A stretch of 64,000 bases of DNA, taken from positions 1,547,501-1,611,500 of the forward strand of contig NZ_CP019937.1 in assembly GCF_002117445.1 (NCBI RefSeq). The letters are read 5' to 3'. Position 1 is the stretch's first letter. Each line of letters starts with the position of its first letter. A model generated the notes under the pieces. That model saw nothing but the letters and a program-made list of their open reading frames with translations, ran no database searches and had not been told where the DNA came from. The position numbers and the translations under genes are program-made. This DNA is from Ketogulonicigenium robustum (lineage in GTDB: Bacteria > Pseudomonadota > Alphaproteobacteria > Rhodobacterales > Rhodobacteraceae). This document shows positions 31,755 through 37,630 of this stretch, piece by piece.

Positions 31755-32813
31755 TCAGGCGACACCGCCGCGAACCAAGCCCGCCGCCAGCTGCGCAAAC
31801 GCCTGCGCCATCTCGCCATCGCCCAACGCAACGGGGCGGCCACTATCGCCCGCCAGACGCGTCTCCAGATCGATGGGCAACTGCGCCAGCAACGGCAGCC
31901 CCAAGGTCGCGGCCTCGTGTGCGACACCGCCGTGACCAAAGATATGGCTGGTGCCACCGCAATGCGGGCAGGTGAAATGGGACATGTTCTCGATCAGGCC
32001 CAGCACGGGGGTATGAAGGGTGTTGAACATATCGACGGCCTTGCGCGCGTCGATTAGCGCGACGTCCTGCGGAGTCGAGACGACGATCGTGCCCGTGACC
32101 TTGGTGCGCTGGCACAGGGTCATCTGCACATCGCCAGTGCCGGGCGGCAGATCGACCAGCAGCACATCCAGTTCGCCCCACGCCACCTGTGTCAGCATCT
32201 GCTGCAGCGCGCCCATCAACATCGGGCCGCGCCACGAGACCGCCTTGCCGGGCGGAACCAGCAGCCCCAGCGACATCAGCGACACCCCGTGCGCGCGCAA
32301 AGGTATCATCGTTTTGCCATCGGGGGCGGTGGGGCGGCGATCTTCGCCCATCATCAACGGCTGCGAGGGGCCATAGATATCCGCGTCCAGCAGCCCCACG
32401 CGCCGGCCCGCGCGTGCCAACGCGACCGCCAGATTCGCCGTTACCGTGGACTTACCCACGCCGCCCTTGCCAGAGCCGATGGCAATAACATGACGCACGC
32501 CCGGCACGGGCTGCGGGCCTGCCGCCTGCGCGGTCGCGTGACGCCCCACCTTCAGCGCCGGGGCCGGACGCGTGCTGGTGAGGACAACATTCACGCGCTG
32601 CACGCCCGCCTGCGCCATCAACGCATCCTCGACAATGCGGGGCACGTTAACGAAGGCCTGTGCGGTTTCGGGATCTGGCACTTCGATTACGAAGCGCACC
32701 TCGCCGTCGACCACGGCCAGAGCGCGCACCAAGTCGCGCGAGATCAGGTCGCCACCGCCCGGCAGTGCGATGGCCCGCAGCGCGGCTGTCACGTCGTCTT
32801 TCGTCAGTGTCAT
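31755..32813 (-). CDS. mrp: Mrp/NBP35-family iron-sulfur cluster carrier ATPase (ApbC-like)
   Basis: A cytoplasmic P-loop ATPase that binds and hands over [4Fe-4S] clusters. The 352-residue form has an N-terminal MIP18-like domain (about 1-90), a deviant Walker A 'IGSGKGGVGKSTVTANLA', 'GLLDADIYGPSQPLMMG', 'DLPPGTGDVQMTLCQ' and the cluster-ligand pair 'HFTCPHCGGTSHIFG' (C-x-x-C). The ATG at 32813 gives the family N-terminus; the open frame extends upstream to 33113 without similarity. Confidence 0.95.
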   Translation of the reverse strand: MTLTKDDVTAALRAIALPGGGDLISRDLVRALAVVDGEVRFVIEVPDPETAQAFVNVPRIVEDALMAQAGVQRVNVVLTSTRPAPALKVGRHATAQAAGPQPVPGVRHVIAIGSGKGGVGKSTVTANLAVALARAGRRVGLLDADIYGPSQPLMMGEDRRPTAPDGKTMIPLRAHGVSLMSLGLLVPPGKAVSWRGPMLMGALQQMLTQVAWGELDVLLVDLPPGTGDVQMTLCQRTKVTGTIVVSTPQDVALIDARKAVDMFNTLHTPVLGLIENMSHFTCPHCGGTSHIFGHGGVAHEAATLGLPLLAQLPIDLETRLAGDSGRPVALGDGEMAQAFAQLAAGLVRGGVA

Positions 32814-33135
32814 CTTGTTCCCCACTCTTGCACCCTGCCGCAGATTCGGATCATGCCCCACATTTATCTGCCGCATATCGGCCTTGGCAGAATCAGCGTC
32901 GCACTGGGGCGGTACTGTCATCGCCTCGACATGTTCGGGCTTTAGCCTGTTTGGTCGTTGACGGGAAGAATACCGCATTATTCCATCATCGCACAGAAAA
33001 CAGGCAGATATTTCCCCCAAATGCGCAAGAGGGGAGCGCCTTATTCCCATCACCCCCTGCATACGCCAATAATCAAGAAAACAAAGGACTTTCGGCCTAT
33101 GCACTGGATGCATGGCGGCCTTGTAAAGGCGGCGA
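32814..33135. other. Upstream part of the mrp-BenE intergenic region
   Basis: Presumably carries the mrp promoter on the minus strand. No gene, RNA signature or long repeat was recognised; a short GAATA-N6-TATTC inverted repeat lies near 32970-32986. Confidence 0.4.
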
Positions 33136-33165
33136 TTGAACCGGCGCGCAATTCATTTACATATG
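33136..33165 (+). promoter_or_regulatory. Candidate promoter of the three-hairpin RNA
   Basis: TTGAAC (33136-33141), an 18-base spacer and CATATG (33160-33165) precede the hairpin array. The boxes fit a sigma-70 or RpoH-type promoter; RpoH control would agree with the stress induction known for CCUCCUCCC-motif RNAs in Rhodobacter. It predicts a start near 33172. Confidence 0.4.
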
Positions 33166-33171
33166 GTCTCA

Positions 33172-33346
33172 AGCAAGGGCGATGACGAAACAAGCACATC
33201 GGCAAAGCCTAGCAACATTATCCGGCGATCTCTCTCCTCCTCCCTCGAGAGATCCTTGGACCCGCAACCTGCACCTCCTCCTCCCATTGCAGGTTGCCAC
33301 AAGACGGCGGCGTCACCTCCTCCCGGCGCCGCCGTCTCGTATTTTT
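33172..33346 (+). ncRNA. Probable sRNA with three anti-Shine-Dalgarno (CCTCCTCC) hairpin loops
   Basis: Three perfect hairpins follow one another. Hairpin 1: arms 33227-33234 and 33247-33254, loop of 12 with CCTCCTCCC. Hairpin 2: arms 33264-33273 and 33288-33297 (10 bp), loop with CCTCCTCCTCCC. Hairpin 3: arms 33303-33312 and 33327-33336 (10 bp, very GC-rich), loop with CCTCCTCCC, then TCGTATTTTT (33337-33346), which makes it an intrinsic terminator. The loops are complementary to the Shine-Dalgarno consensus GGAGG. The design matches the alphaproteobacterial CcsR/'cuckoo' RNAs (CCUCCUCCC motif), which usually have two motif hairpins. No DUF1127 gene precedes it, and the next gene is a BenE transporter 81 bases on, so a leader role is also possible. 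Confidence 0.75.
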
Positions 33347-33426: not shown

Positions 33427-34581
33427 ATGCGTGTTTCCCTTTTCGCCCCAGCCCTTGTCGCCGCCCTGATCGGGTATGGCTCGTCCATCGCGCTTGTGTT
33501 GGCAGCCGCGCAGGCGCTGGGGGCGACGCCTGAACAAACGCAAAGCTGGGTCTTCGCGCTCTGCCTTGGCAAAGCGGTGGGCAGCATCATTCTGTCGGTC
33601 TGGACACGTATCCCCACGGTTTTGGCGTGGTCGACACCGGGCGCAGCGCTGATTGCCGCGACCGATGGCATCACAATGGCCGAGGGCGTCGGCGCGTTCG
33701 TTCTGGTCGGCATACTGATTGCCCTCACCGGTGTAGTGCGCCCGCTGGGGCGGTTGATCGCCATGATCCCCGACGCGCTGGCAGGCGCCATGTTGGCCGG
33801 CGTACTGCTGCCATTTTGCCTACAGATCGCTGGCGCGCTACAAGGCGCGCCGATGATCGTGGGCATGATGGTTGTCGTCTATCTGCTGGCGCGCATGGTG
33901 AATGCCGCTGCCAGCGTGCTGGTTGCACTGGCGGCAGGGCTGGCCTTGGCCGCGATGCAGGGGCAAATCACGCTGCCGCACGATGGCTTTGTGCTGCCGC
34001 ACCTTGTCTTTATTGCCCCCACCTTCAATCTTGGCACCGTCTTCGGGCTGGCACTGCCGCTTTATATAGTGACGATGGCAGCACAGAACCTACCAGGGTT
34101 CGCCGTGCAGCGAGCGGCTGGCTATACCCCGAATGTGGGACGCAGCCTGCTGGTCACGGGCACGGGGTCGGCGCTGACGGGGCTGTTTGGCGCGCACACC
34201 CATAATATGGCGGCCATTACAGCCGCCATCTGCCTAGACCCTGCCGTCCACCCGAACCCAGCCGAGCGCTGGAAAGTGGCCCTGCCCTATGGCGCTGCGT
34301 GGCTGGTGCTGGCGCTGGTCGGGCCGTGGATGATCGGCCTGCTGCACGGCCTGCCCCCGCAACTGCTGACCGCCGTCGTGGCGCTGGGCCTGCTGGCCCC
34401 GCTTGCCGGGGCGCTGGGCAACGCCATGAGCCACCCCAGCCAACGCACTGCAGCGACTGTCACGATCCTTGTCGCGGCTAGCGGGGTCAGCTTCTTTGGT
34501 GTCGGCGCGGCATTTTGGGGCTTGGTTGTCGGCCTTGTCGTCCATATGACCGACACAGTCCTGAAAAGAGCCAAGCCATGA
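33427..34581 (+). CDS. BenE-family benzoate/aromatic-acid-type transporter
   Basis: A 384-residue inner-membrane protein with about 12 hydrophobic segments. 'FAPALVAALIGYGSSIALVL' at the start, 'RIPTVLAWSTPGAALIA', 'MIPDALAGAMLAGVLLPF' and 'TGLFGAHTHNMAAITAAICL' match the BenE/NCS2-related family (proposed benzoate:H+ symporters). The ATG at 33427 has AGGA 6 bases upstream and begins at the family start; the frame is open upstream but would run through the hairpin RNA. The true substrate is uncertain, as no aromatic degradation genes are near. It overlaps the LysE gene by 4 bases. Confidence 0.85.
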   Translation: MRVSLFAPALVAALIGYGSSIALVLAAAQALGATPEQTQSWVFALCLGKAVGSIILSVWTRIPTVLAWSTPGAALIAATDGITMAEGVGAFVLVGILIALTGVVRPLGRLIAMIPDALAGAMLAGVLLPFCLQIAGALQGAPMIVGMMVVVYLLARMVNAAASVLVALAAGLALAAMQGQITLPHDGFVLPHLVFIAPTFNLGTVFGLALPLYIVTMAAQNLPGFAVQRAAGYTPNVGRSLLVTGTGSALTGLFGAHTHNMAAITAAICLDPAVHPNPAERWKVALPYGAAWLVLALVGPWMIGLLHGLPPQLLTAVVALGLLAPLAGALGNAMSHPSQRTAATVTILVAASGVSFFGVGAAFWGLVVGLVVHMTDTVLKRAKP

Positions 34582-35171
34582 CCATTGCCACATTCCTTGC
34601 CGTCCTTGTTTTCGGGTTGATCAGTTCGATCACACCGGGGCCCAACAACCTGATGGTAATGACGTCGGGCGCGAATTTCGGCCTGCACCGCAGCTGGCCG
34701 CATATCTGGGGCATCGCCTTGGGGTTTGGGGTGATGATCTTCATTCTGGGCCTTGCACTTGCAGGGCTGTCGATGCTGCTGCCCACCATGCGGGTGCTGC
34801 TGAAGGTCGTGGCCGTGGTCTATTTGCTGTATCTGGCGTGGAAGATCGCCACCGCCGCGCCGATCGACGGGGCCACAAGCACGGCACAACCGCTCAGCTT
34901 CTTACAGGCGGCGGCGTTTCAATGGGTTAACCCCAAGGCCTGGGCCAGCGCGGTGACCGCAGTCGCCGCCTATTCGCCTAGCGGGTCGTTTTTGGGCGCG
35001 GTGCTGATCGCGGTGGCGTTTATCATCACGGGGCTGCCGTCTGTCACGCTTTGGTGCGTCATGGGGCAGGAACTGCGCCGCCTGCTGGATACGCCCGCGC
35101 GCCTGCGCGCGTTCAACATCACGATGGCCATCTTGCTGCTGCTGACGCTGATCCCGATTGTGATGGTGTAA
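34578..35171 (+). CDS. LysE/RhtB-family exporter
   Basis: A 197-residue protein with five to six membrane helices; 'SITPGPNNLMVMTSGANFG' near the N-terminus is the LysE/RhtB signature and 'AAAFQWVNPKAWASAVTAV' the second conserved segment. It probably exports an amino acid or related metabolite. The ATG at 34578 overlaps the BenE stop (ATGA), so the uptake-type and export-type genes are translated as a pair. Confidence 0.88.
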   Translation: MTIATFLAVLVFGLISSITPGPNNLMVMTSGANFGLHRSWPHIWGIALGFGVMIFILGLALAGLSMLLPTMRVLLKVVAVVYLLYLAWKIATAAPIDGATSTAQPLSFLQAAAFQWVNPKAWASAVTAVAAYSPSGSFLGAVLIAVAFIITGLPSVTLWCVMGQELRRLLDTPARLRAFNITMAILLLLTLIPIVMV

Positions 35172-35188: not shown

Positions 35189-37525
35189 TTAGAACGGGAT
35201 GTCATCAGCCTGCGCTGCGGGCACAACGAAATGCGACATCAGGTGCTTTTCACCCGCCTTATCAAAGGCGACCAGCACCTTGTCGCCATCCAGCGCGGTG
35301 ATCAGACCGTAGCCGAACTTCTGGTGGAATACCCGATCCCCCACCGCCAGCACGGTGGTCGCCACGGCATCAATAATCGGGCCGCGGCCCGTCTTGAACC
35401 CCGACACACCGCGCTGCGCGCCGCGTGATTGCATGCGCTGCCACCCGGGCGAGTTGTAAACATCGGCGCTGGCGGCCCTTTCCTCGACCCGCGCGGGTTG
35501 GGGCGCGGCGGCGCCATAACTGCCCCCATAAAGACCGGGCGGCGTCAGCACCTCGACATCATCGGGCGGCAGCTCGTCGATAAAGCGCGACGGCAGCATC
35601 GACTGCCGCTGCCCGTGAAAGAACCGCGTCGCGGCAAAGCTGATGATCGCCAACCGCTCGGCCCGGGTGATACCCACATAGGCCAAGCGCCGTTCCTCCT
35701 CGAGCGCGGCAAGGCCGCTTTCATCCAACGCGCGCTGGGACGGGAAAATGCCGTCTTCCCAACCCGGCAGAAAGACAACGGGAAATTCCAACCCCTTCGC
35801 GGCGTGCAAGGTCATAATCGACACCTGCGGGCCGGCGGTGTCGGATTCGTTTTCCGCCACCAGCGCGACATGTTCCAAAAAGCCCTGCATGTTGTCGAAG
35901 TTATCCAGCGACTTCACCAGCTCCTTCAGGTTCTCCAAACGCCCTTCGGCATCGGGCGACTTTTCGGCCTGCCACATGCCGGTGTAGCCCGATTCGTCCA
36001 AGATCTGCTCGGCCAATTCGATATGCGATGCGCCCGCTAGAATGGCATCGTGCCACCGGTAGAATTGCTGTACCAAAGCGCCCAGCGTCGACACGGCTTT
36101 GCCGCCCAGCAACTTTTGCTGCACCACCGCCCCGGCCGCATCCAGCAACGACAAGCCTTGGTCGCGCGCGGTGCGTTGAATCGTCTGCACCGCTTTCTCA
36201 CCCAAGCCGCGTTTGGGGGTATTGACGATCCGCTCGAACGCCAGATCGTCGCTGCCTTGCACCGCCAAGCGGAAATAGGCCATCGCGTCGCGAATCTCCA
36301 TCCGCTCGTAAAAGCGGGGGCCACCGATGACTTTGTAGGGCAGGCCAATCGCCAGAAAACGGTCTTCAAATGCGCGCATCTGGTGCGACGCGCGCACCAG
36401 AATCGCCATCTGGTCCAACGCAAAGGGCGGCAAGCCGCGTGATCCGCCCTGCAGGGCCTCGATCTCTTCGCCGACCCAGCGGGCCTCGTCTTCGTTATCC
36501 CATTGGCCAATCAGGCGGACACGCTCGCCCTGCCCGGCCTCGGTCCAAAGGGTCTTGCCCAGCCGACCGCCATTCTTGGCGATCACACCGGACGCCGCCG
36601 ACAGGATATGCCCCGTGGATCGATAGTTCTGCTCTAGCCGGATCACGGTCGCGCCGGGAAAGTCGCGCTCGAACCGCAAGATGTTACCCACTTCGGCGCC
36701 GCGCCAGCCGTAAATCGACTGGTCGTCATCACCCACGCAGCAGATGTTGTGGTGTTTGGCCGCCAGCAGCCGCAGCCACAGGTACTGCGCGACGTTGGTG
36801 TCTTGGTATTCGTCGACCAGAATGTACTTGAACCGGTCCTGATAGCTTTCCAGCACATCGGGGTGCTTTTGGAAGATGCGCACCATGTGCAGCAGCAGGT
36901 CACCAAAATCGACCGCGTTCAGCGCCTTTAGCCGCGCCTGATATTCGCCATAAAGCCGGATCGCCCGCCCGTCATAGGCGCTGGCATCGGATGTGGGGAT
37001 GGAATCCGGCCCAATGGCCCGGTTTTTCCAGCCATCAATCACCCCCGCCAGCGCGCGCGCTGGCCAGCGTTTTTCGTCAATCCCCGCCGCTTTAATCAGT
37101 TGTTTCAGCAATCGCAGCTGGTCGTCGCTATCCAGAATGGTGAAGTCAGGTCGTAGCCCCACCAACTCGGCATGGCGGCGCAGCAGCCGCACGCAAACCG
37201 AGTGGAAAGTCCCCAGCCACGGCATCCCCTCGACCGCGTCACCCAGCACCTTGCCGATGCGGTGCTTCATCTCGCGCGCGGCTTTGTTGGTAAAGGTCAC
37301 CGCCAAAATCTGCCCCGGGTAGGCGCGCCCCGTGCTGACGATATGCACGATGCGGCTTGTCAGCGCCTTGGTCTTGCCCGTCCCCGCCCCTGCCAGCATC
37401 AAAACCGGCCCGTCCATCGTTTCGACGGCCGCTAACTGCGCAGCATTCAGCCCATCCAGATAGGGGGTCGGGCGCGCGGCCATGGCGCGCTGTGAAAGCG
37501 AGGGGGTCGGGGTATTATCCATCAT
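35189..37525 (-). CDS. pcrA: UvrD/PcrA-type ATP-dependent DNA helicase
   Basis: An SF1A 3'-5' helicase of repair and replication. Of 778 residues, the N-terminal half has 'LNAAQLAAV' (Q motif), 'LAGAGTGKTKAL' (Walker A), 'AVTFTNKAAREMK', 'LVDEYQDTN' and 'GDDDQSIYGWRGA'. The C-terminal half has 'QNYRSTGHILSAASGVI', 'STMTLHAAKGLEF'-like 'SIMTLHAAKGLEFPVVF' and 'EERRLAYVGITRA'. A C-terminal Tudor-like domain (about 735-778, 'VGDRVFHQKFGYGLI') is the RNA-polymerase-binding module of UvrD/PcrA. The start is chosen at 37525 or 37522, because an SOS box lies 44 bases further upstream. Confidence 0.95.
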   Translation of the reverse strand: MMDNTPTPSLSQRAMAARPTPYLDGLNAAQLAAVETMDGPVLMLAGAGTGKTKALTSRIVHIVSTGRAYPGQILAVTFTNKAAREMKHRIGKVLGDAVEGMPWLGTFHSVCVRLLRRHAELVGLRPDFTILDSDDQLRLLKQLIKAAGIDEKRWPARALAGVIDGWKNRAIGPDSIPTSDASAYDGRAIRLYGEYQARLKALNAVDFGDLLLHMVRIFQKHPDVLESYQDRFKYILVDEYQDTNVAQYLWLRLLAAKHHNICCVGDDDQSIYGWRGAEVGNILRFERDFPGATVIRLEQNYRSTGHILSAASGVIAKNGGRLGKTLWTEAGQGERVRLIGQWDNEDEARWVGEEIEALQGGSRGLPPFALDQMAILVRASHQMRAFEDRFLAIGLPYKVIGGPRFYERMEIRDAMAYFRLAVQGSDDLAFERIVNTPKRGLGEKAVQTIQRTARDQGLSLLDAAGAVVQQKLLGGKAVSTLGALVQQFYRWHDAILAGASHIELAEQILDESGYTGMWQAEKSPDAEGRLENLKELVKSLDNFDNMQGFLEHVALVAENESDTAGPQVSIMTLHAAKGLEFPVVFLPGWEDGIFPSQRALDESGLAALEEERRLAYVGITRAERLAIISFAATRFFHGQRQSMLPSRFIDELPPDDVEVLTPPGLYGGSYGAAAPQPARVEERAASADVYNSPGWQRMQSRGAQRGVSGFKTGRGPIIDAVATTVLAVGDRVFHQKFGYGLITALDGDKVLVAFDKAGEKHLMSHFVVPAAQADDIPF

Positions 37526-37568
37526 ACCGGCCAACATAGCCAAGGCACGGGCCGGTGGGAAGATCAAT

Positions 37569-37583
37569 GTTCCCGTTACGTTC
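37569..37583. promoter_or_regulatory. LexA/SOS box upstream of the pcrA/uvrD helicase
   Basis: GTTC-CCGTTAC-GTTC on the plus strand matches the alphaproteobacterial LexA operator exactly. It is 44 bases before the helicase start on the minus strand and 161 bases before pyc on the plus strand; a repair helicase is the likelier target. Confidence 0.7.
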
Positions 37584-37630
37584 AAAATCTGCCGCGACTT
37601 TTACCGCGCGCGCTTTCGCCACAAAACAGG

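Follow-up and report, generated by a model that had tools for sequence, protein, structure and literature searches.

Three hairpins that each carry an anti-Shine-Dalgarno motif in the loop stand in tandem in the genome of Ketogulonicigenium robustum, and they raise the question of which kind of RNA they form, what may control it and on which mRNAs it may act. The window, i.e. the whole stretch of 64,000 nt analyzed here, contains 41 CCTCC words on its two strands. Hairpins of at least 8 bp were found around five of these words, and three of the five are the hairpins in question. The 175-nt strand that carries them has a predicted folding energy of -69.6 kcal/mol, compared with -45.8 +/- 4.0 kcal/mol for 200 dinucleotide shuffles (z = -5.95; 0/200 as low). 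In the predicted fold, the motif CCTCCTCC lies unpaired in the loop of each of the three hairpins, and the transcript would be built as follows:

33171-33226, plus strand: weakly structured leader, its start (33171 or 33172) deduced from promoter spacing; position of the DUF1127 gene in relatives
33227-33254, plus strand: hairpin 1, predicted core of 8 bp, loop TCCTCCTCCCTC
33264-33297, plus strand: hairpin 2, predicted stem of 10 bp, loop CCTCCTCCTCCCAT
33302-33337, plus strand: hairpin 3, predicted stem of 13 bp and loop ACCTCCTCCC; a likely terminator together with the TCGTATTTTT behind it (up to 33346)

Hairpin 1 amounts to 13 bp if the outer helix 33221-33260 across a 1x1 mismatch is counted. 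The original prediction had thus placed three CCTCC-loop hairpins correctly, but had given the third stem 10 bp instead of 13. It had also taken hairpin 3 for an intrinsic terminator, which is plausible: the GC-rich stem of 13 bp followed by TCGTATTTTT is terminator-like, although a terminator scan accepting loops of 3 to 8 nt made no call at this hairpin, whose loop has 10.

The family to which the RNA belongs was revealed by a covariance-model search against Rfam:

33216-33340, plus strand: ar14 sRNA (RF02344), 73.3 bits against a cut-off of 58.8

The match is full-length (model positions 1-123 of 123), and the search of the whole 64-kb window at gathering cut-offs returned no family besides ar14, so no match to AbcR (ar15). 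One ar14 copy is present in the genome of the window and one in K. vulgare; within the taxonomic family, 245 of 295 genomes give a match with an E-value of at most 0.001, 37 of them above the curated cut-off. In the sections of the literature drawn on here, the defining features of ar14 RNAs are three hairpins whose stems vary greatly and whose loops all carry the anti-Shine-Dalgarno motif CCUCCUCCC; the founding member is NfeR1 of Sinorhizobium meliloti (Smr14C2) (PMC7143759; PMC10746234). A member would be expected to give a transcript of approximately 115-123 nt and to silence mRNAs through its loops. NfeR1 silences defined mRNAs in this way, silencing is abolished if all three motifs are mutated, and the three motifs are reported to be redundant (PMC10746234). 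RF02344 is itself a three-hairpin model. As three hairpins are what defines the family, the earlier claim that their number is unusual fails, and the multivalent binding through three loops proposed along with it is not needed in view of the reported redundancy. Judged by its sequence, the RNA is an ordinary new member of the already known ar14/NfeR1 family. The proposal of an anti-Shine-Dalgarno sRNA related to the cuckoo/CcsR RNAs was correct. The locus has its counterpart in DUF1127-RNA loci (see below). The CcsR RNAs of Rhodobacter sphaeroides share the motif, and we take them to be the same kind of RNA as the ar14 RNA described here.

Selection on the hairpins was evaluated in a sample of 91 Rhodobacteraceae loci, comprising the best-scoring ar14 match per genome among the matches listed plus that of genome G001. 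This sample is non-random and favours three-hairpin forms (three loops in 72 loci, four in 8, two in 11). Among the 72 loci with exactly three loops, the two arms of a locus pair over at least 5 bp in 64, 65 and 68 cases for hairpins 1, 2 and 3, respectively, while arms exchanged between loci do so in mean fractions of only 0.23, 0.28 and 0.34. Consistent results were obtained with 31 family members aligned by sequence alone: two-sided change was found in 35 of 38 pairs, the covariation score was 0.314 compared with 0.109-0.210 for slid structures (0/500 shuffles as high), and each of five covariation measures exceeded all 500 shuffles and all slid versions, whereby the structure was taken from the row of the window, which favours that structure somewhat. 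The terminator helix was paired best in this alignment (88%); we attribute the lower pairing of the other two stems (51-57%) partly to stems of unequal length that fail to align, a problem from which the arm-swap test is free. The K. vulgare copy keeps all three loops and has one compensatory pair each in stem 2 (A-T to G-C) and stem 3 (C-G to T-A); its hairpin 1 has only 6 bp, and the stem changes there are non-compensatory. The comparison indicates that ar14 stems are free in sequence and held in pairing, with fixed loops. Both the predicted selection on stems with constant loops and the predicted conservation in a close relative are in agreement with these results, the latter with the shortened stem 1 of K. 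vulgare.

An open frame runs in the window from 33136 through the hairpins into BenE, so that the segment might be part of a coding region or a leader of benE. We consider this extremely improbable, given that the K. vulgare sequence has a stop codon between hairpins and benE, 20 codons ahead of the start of benE, and that a 10-nt length difference before the hairpins has left them intact. A coding origin was rejected on the grounds that the frame is closed before benE in K. vulgare, and a benE leader on the grounds that hairpin 3 is terminator-like; the compensatory nature of the stem changes likewise argues against both.

The ar14 RNA, read as an independent transcription unit, is flanked by the following genes:

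31755-32813, minus strand: mrp/apbC (Pfam PF10609), divergent neighbour and part of the conserved locus
33427-34581, plus strand: benE (PF03594), downstream gene
34578-35171, plus strand: lysE-type exporter gene (PF01810), after benE
35189-37585, minus strand: uvrD-type helicase gene (PF00580/PF13361), recurring neighbour on the other side

Within flanks of approximately 1.5 kb, which make all neighbour counts lower bounds, mrp was found divergently upstream of ar14 in 67 of the 91 loci and uvrD downstream in 38, compared with a benE match in 9 and a downstream lysE match in 15. The placement directly before a BenE-LysE operon, as originally described, is correct in its coordinates but does not represent a conserved context; the BenE-LysE neighbourhood is probably incidental and benE probably without functional tie to the sRNA.

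A DUF1127 gene precedes the ar14 RNA on the same strand, within 624 nt, in 82 of the 91 loci. The nine loci lacking it are those of the genome of the window (G000) and of G001, G141, G049, G293, G098, G089, G093 and G240. No DUF1127 match was obtained in the 3.1-kb locus around the RNA (1.5 kb on each side); two DUF1127 genes are found elsewhere in this genome, approximately 0.18 and 0.27 Mb from the RNA; one of the two adjoins ruvC and the other lysR/BI1. Both neighbourhoods recur in relatives that have their own ar14-linked DUF1127 gene (ruvC type in G007, G118, G243 and G276; lysR type in G118, G243 and G276), which makes loss of the mrp-linked gene likelier than relocation. Relocation was rejected, as the two remaining genes have counterparts elsewhere in relatives, and the gene was probably lost here, not moved, as far as gene order can tell. 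In the literature consulted, the arrangement of a DUF1127 gene with cuckoo RNAs is called CIN1. By position, the present locus is the counterpart of this DUF1127-cuckoo RNA locus, apparently with promoter, position and RNA kept and the DUF1127 gene gone. The absence of the gene, noted at the outset, is real, but it has the appearance of a gene loss in a locus that is conserved among relatives. The lysR - DUF1127 - BI1-like membrane protein neighbourhood (L033 1081-3251) was also seen in three other genera.

The DUF1127-less form is not unique to Ketogulonicigenium. Named genomes were scanned for the promoter box followed by CTCCTCC within approximately 160 nt, and 77 stretches were returned. 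Twenty-three of them are from Rhodobacterales, with at least two motif hairpins and no DUF1127 match nearby (exactly two hairpins in 13; some of the 23 are the same strain or near copies), from which it follows that other Rhodobacterales have such versions, as judged from the scanned stretches. Six are from Rhizobiales, e.g. Rhizobium and Ahrensia, and many of the remaining ones, which belong to unrelated phyla and lack such hairpins, seem to have matched by chance. Repeated loss of DUF1127 is only suggested: on a quick Mrp tree the DUF1127 label needs 10 changes, at least three of them forced by well-supported branches, with a label that mixes in loci whose DUF1127 gene stands further downstream. 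In Sulfitobacter (L128, L167, L176, L180 and L183), the box promoter is followed by one or two motif hairpins, by a DUF1127 match approximately 460 nt further on and by more hairpins, so that the protein gene is flanked by RNA on either side.

The promoter region of the ar14 RNA contains the following elements:

33098-33114, plus strand: LsrB-type LTTR box TATGCA-CTGGAT-GCATG, recognized by sequence, at about -71 to -58 from the deduced start
33136-33141, plus strand: -35 element TTGAAC (ATTGAAC from 33135), aligning with ATTGTGCA of other Rhodobacteraceae promoters
33159-33164, plus strand: -10 element ACATAT, 17 nt after the -35 element; the surrounding TTTACATATGGTCTCAAGCAAGGGCG is identical in K. 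vulgare

The core of the box, TGCA-CTGGAT-GCAT, lies at 33100-33113. K. vulgare has kept the box, the spacing and a block of 26 nt around the -10 element, with a different N6. The TTG of the -35 element begins 36 or 37 nt past the start of the box in all 60 anchored promoters, including that of the window (3 of 63 rows lacked a recognizable anchor and were left out). TGCA-N6-GCAT occurs in the 500 nt before DUF1127 in 71 of 82 loci and, where DUF1127 is lacking, in the 450 nt before ar14 in 7 of 9 loci, against a background of one in 107,475 downstream bases. The upstream type of box, as in the window, is present in 59 of the 82 DUF1127-RNA loci and 4 of the 9 DUF1127-less ones; a second type, which overlaps the -35 element, is present in 51 and 3, respectively, and absent from the Ketogulonicigenium promoters. 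The distance from box to RNA is 91 nt in G141 and 98 nt in G293. The second element conserved among these promoters (TGCAnntGCAGCAT) is degenerate in Ketogulonicigenium. With the stricter pattern TATGCA-N6-GCATR, five places were found in each Ketogulonicigenium genome (reversed-pattern control: 0 in the genome of the window, 3 in K. vulgare). In both species the five include the promoter of ar14 and that of one DUF1127 gene, which suggests that the two may have a regulator in common.

Some further sequence elements were noted. The ruvC-linked DUF1127 gene is preceded by the same box in K. robustum as well as in K. vulgare (L032 1687 and L034 1706). Two more LsrB-type boxes are located in the genome of the window at G000 C1:300844, where the pattern is present on both strands, and at C1:1811610. 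Between box and -35 element, positions 33118-33130 form a short perfect inverted repeat, GCCTTGTAAAGGC, which is identical in K. vulgare and a possible operator.

The promoter of nfeR1 in S. meliloti is described as CTTAGAC-N17-CTATAT with a box for the LysR-type regulator LsrB, TGCA-N6-GCAT, at -72 to -60 (PMC10746234). Box position (about -71 here) and N17 spacing correspond to this arrangement; the -35 and -10 hexamers are only similar and differ from the CTTAGAC/CTATAT signature, and the start site is deduced from spacing. Unlike in rhizobial nfeR1 promoters, an NtrC motif (TGC-N11-GCA) was not seen by eye at the corresponding place of the window promoter (-116 to -101); the cited section of PMC10746234 states that this motif is not seen either once the alignments are widened to Agrobacterium and Brucella. 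The TTG and TAT elements are also compatible with RpoHI/RpoHII, as described for a DUF1127 gene of R. sphaeroides (PMC10673084), without deciding between sigma factors; an RpoHI/RpoHII promoter and RNase E processing would be expected of a CcsR-type locus. Together with the position in a DUF1127-cuckoo operon locus, and with the retention of two other DUF1127 genes in the genome, one of them with the same box upstream in both species, this would fit a CcsR-type cuckoo RNA that is controlled by heat and oxidative stress through RpoHI/RpoHII and works together with a DUF1127 protein encoded elsewhere in the genome. We regard this alternative as rather unlikely, since the co-transcribed DUF1127 gene is absent here and the LTTR box with N17 spacing matches the NfeR1 promoter just as well.

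A search for a regulator related to LsrB, with an LsrB consensus as query, gave one clear homologue in the genome of the window (G000 C1:1719090), which is 56% identical to the query, compared with 34% for the next best gene. K. vulgare, G141, G293 and G007 have one such homologue each. The query is validated by the result in Rhizobium sp. CFBP 8762, where the top-scoring gene sits directly behind trxB, the known place of LsrB in the descriptions consulted. The LsrB-like gene here stands between murI-like and purL-like genes (named from their translations) and not beside trxB; the trxB neighbourhood, tried as a route to LsrB, gave an Lrp-type gene instead. A section of PMC11975290 bears the heading 'LsrB is a LTTR unique to Rhizobiales', which counts against LsrB control in Ketogulonicigenium. 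We nevertheless infer from homologue and box that an LsrB-like regulator may act on the ar14 promoter. Among the papers listed in the literature searches, none connects LsrB to CcsR loci, and none contains both NfeR1 and Rhodobacterales.

Candidate targets were sought among frames of at least 80 aa with a loop-type Shine-Dalgarno site, i.e. GGGAGGAG 4-11 nt or GGAGGAGG 3-10 nt before ATG. In the two Ketogulonicigenium genomes, 9 of the 16 distinct genes with such a site encode solute-binding proteins according to Pfam (families SBP_bac_1, SBP_bac_3, SBP_bac_6, TctC, NMT1 and DctP), compared with 0 of the 24 genes with the ordinary Shine-Dalgarno sequence AAAGGAGG (Fisher p = 4e-5; 8/14 against 0/21 with orthologues merged, p = 1e-4). 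Loop-type rows were dropped for a frame below 80 aa (L220, L224, L225, L227, L229, L230 and L233) or as repeats of the same gene (L215 and L232), control rows not at all; 20 of the 24 ordinary-site genes were scanned, and the other four, L258 and three that are nearly identical to scanned genes (L237, L250 and L253), were classified by eye. Most of the signal comes from K. vulgare (6/9 against 0/18, p = 3e-4); for K. robustum alone the difference is not significant (3/7 against 0/6, p = 0.19). The loop-type site is present in both species at the genes for a sugar-binding protein and the protocatechuate dioxygenase beta subunit. In control genomes, of which 30 of 62 sites were read by eye without Pfam scan, two Rhodobacteraceae without an ar14 match had one binding-protein gene each (L278 and L269) among the GGGAGGAG starts inspected, which were 7 of 16 sites in one genome and 7 of 20 in the other, and two with ar14 had such genes at 4 of 8 and 1 of 8 of the starts read. 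These control genomes weaken the target test. The NfeR1 targets that were tested in S. meliloti include two periplasmic binding proteins, and a third target is ntrB, according to the published part consulted. From this correlative link we infer that the ar14 targets include many periplasmic solute-binding proteins of transporters, and the three looped-out motifs against ribosome-binding sites probably switch off genes of nutrient uptake.

The repeated motif, which resembles the 16S tail, could alternatively make the RNA a decoy for ribosomes or for a CU-binding protein, with no particular mRNAs as targets. Constant loops on variable stems would suit such a function, as would the arrays of approximately 15 loops in one relative. 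The silencing of defined mRNAs by NfeR1, lost upon mutation of all three motifs (PMC10746234), speaks against it, and we consider a decoy improbable. The array in question belongs to G007, where approximately 15 successive anti-Shine-Dalgarno loops are contained in about 600 nt behind one DUF1127 gene (L003/L038; G007 C38:282136-282742). To our knowledge, this is more than in the CcsR1-4 row of R. sphaeroides.

Considering all lines of evidence, we think it highly likely that the locus encodes an sRNA of the ar14 (NfeR1) family that stands on its own and acts in trans, under LsrB-like control, with loops that pair with ribosome-binding sites, with binding-protein mRNAs as targets, and with the DUF1127 gene lost. 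The LsrB-like LysR-type regulator encoded at G000 C1:1719090 would raise transcription upon stress, nutrient limitation or a redox signal. An RNA of approximately 170 nt would begin near 33171 and terminate after hairpin 3. Each loop would be able to base-pair with ribosome-binding sites resembling GGGAGGAGG and thereby prevent translation, and the three would be largely redundant if they behave as reported for NfeR1 (PMC10746234). As the DUF1127 (CcaF1-like) gene appears to have been lost from the locus, the RNA would follow directly behind its promoter, as in rhizobial NfeR1.

Among known systems, the RNA resembles NfeR1 in its three hairpins, in the CCUCCUCCC motif of each loop and in its hypervariable stems, and differs from it in its host family (Rhodobacteraceae), its single copy and its mrp/uvrD locus. 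It resembles the CIN1 arrangement in its mrp (and uvrD) neighbour and box promoter, a trait found here and not part of a definition in the literature consulted; unlike CIN1 and the CcsR1-4/ccaF1 locus of R. sphaeroides it lacks the upstream DUF1127 gene and consists of one RNA, not a row. AbcR1 and AbcR2 (ar15) likewise belong to the alphaproteobacterial anti-Shine-Dalgarno type and, in the accounts drawn on, silence transporter mRNAs, with AbcR1 under LsrB/VtlR control; unlike the present RNA, they have two anti-Shine-Dalgarno motifs and bind Hfq, and an ar15 match was not found in the window. On balance, the odds appear even that the NfeR1 and the DUF1127-cuckoo (CcsR/CIN1) loci derive from one ancestral module of LsrB box and anti-Shine-Dalgarno hairpin array, with or without an RNA-binding DUF1127 protein gene in between. 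Ketogulonicigenium would then have dropped the protein and kept a single three-loop RNA, with an LsrB homologue outside Rhizobiales and solute-binding proteins as targets.

As a sequence feature the RNA is ordinary, and its value is comparative. The box shared between the promoters links two literatures, that on NfeR1 under LsrB in rhizobia and that on CcsR under RpoH in Rhodobacter. An ar14 RNA that stands in the same locus without its usual DUF1127 partner would moreover represent a natural knock-out, which may help to answer whether DUF1127 is needed for cuckoo-RNA function.
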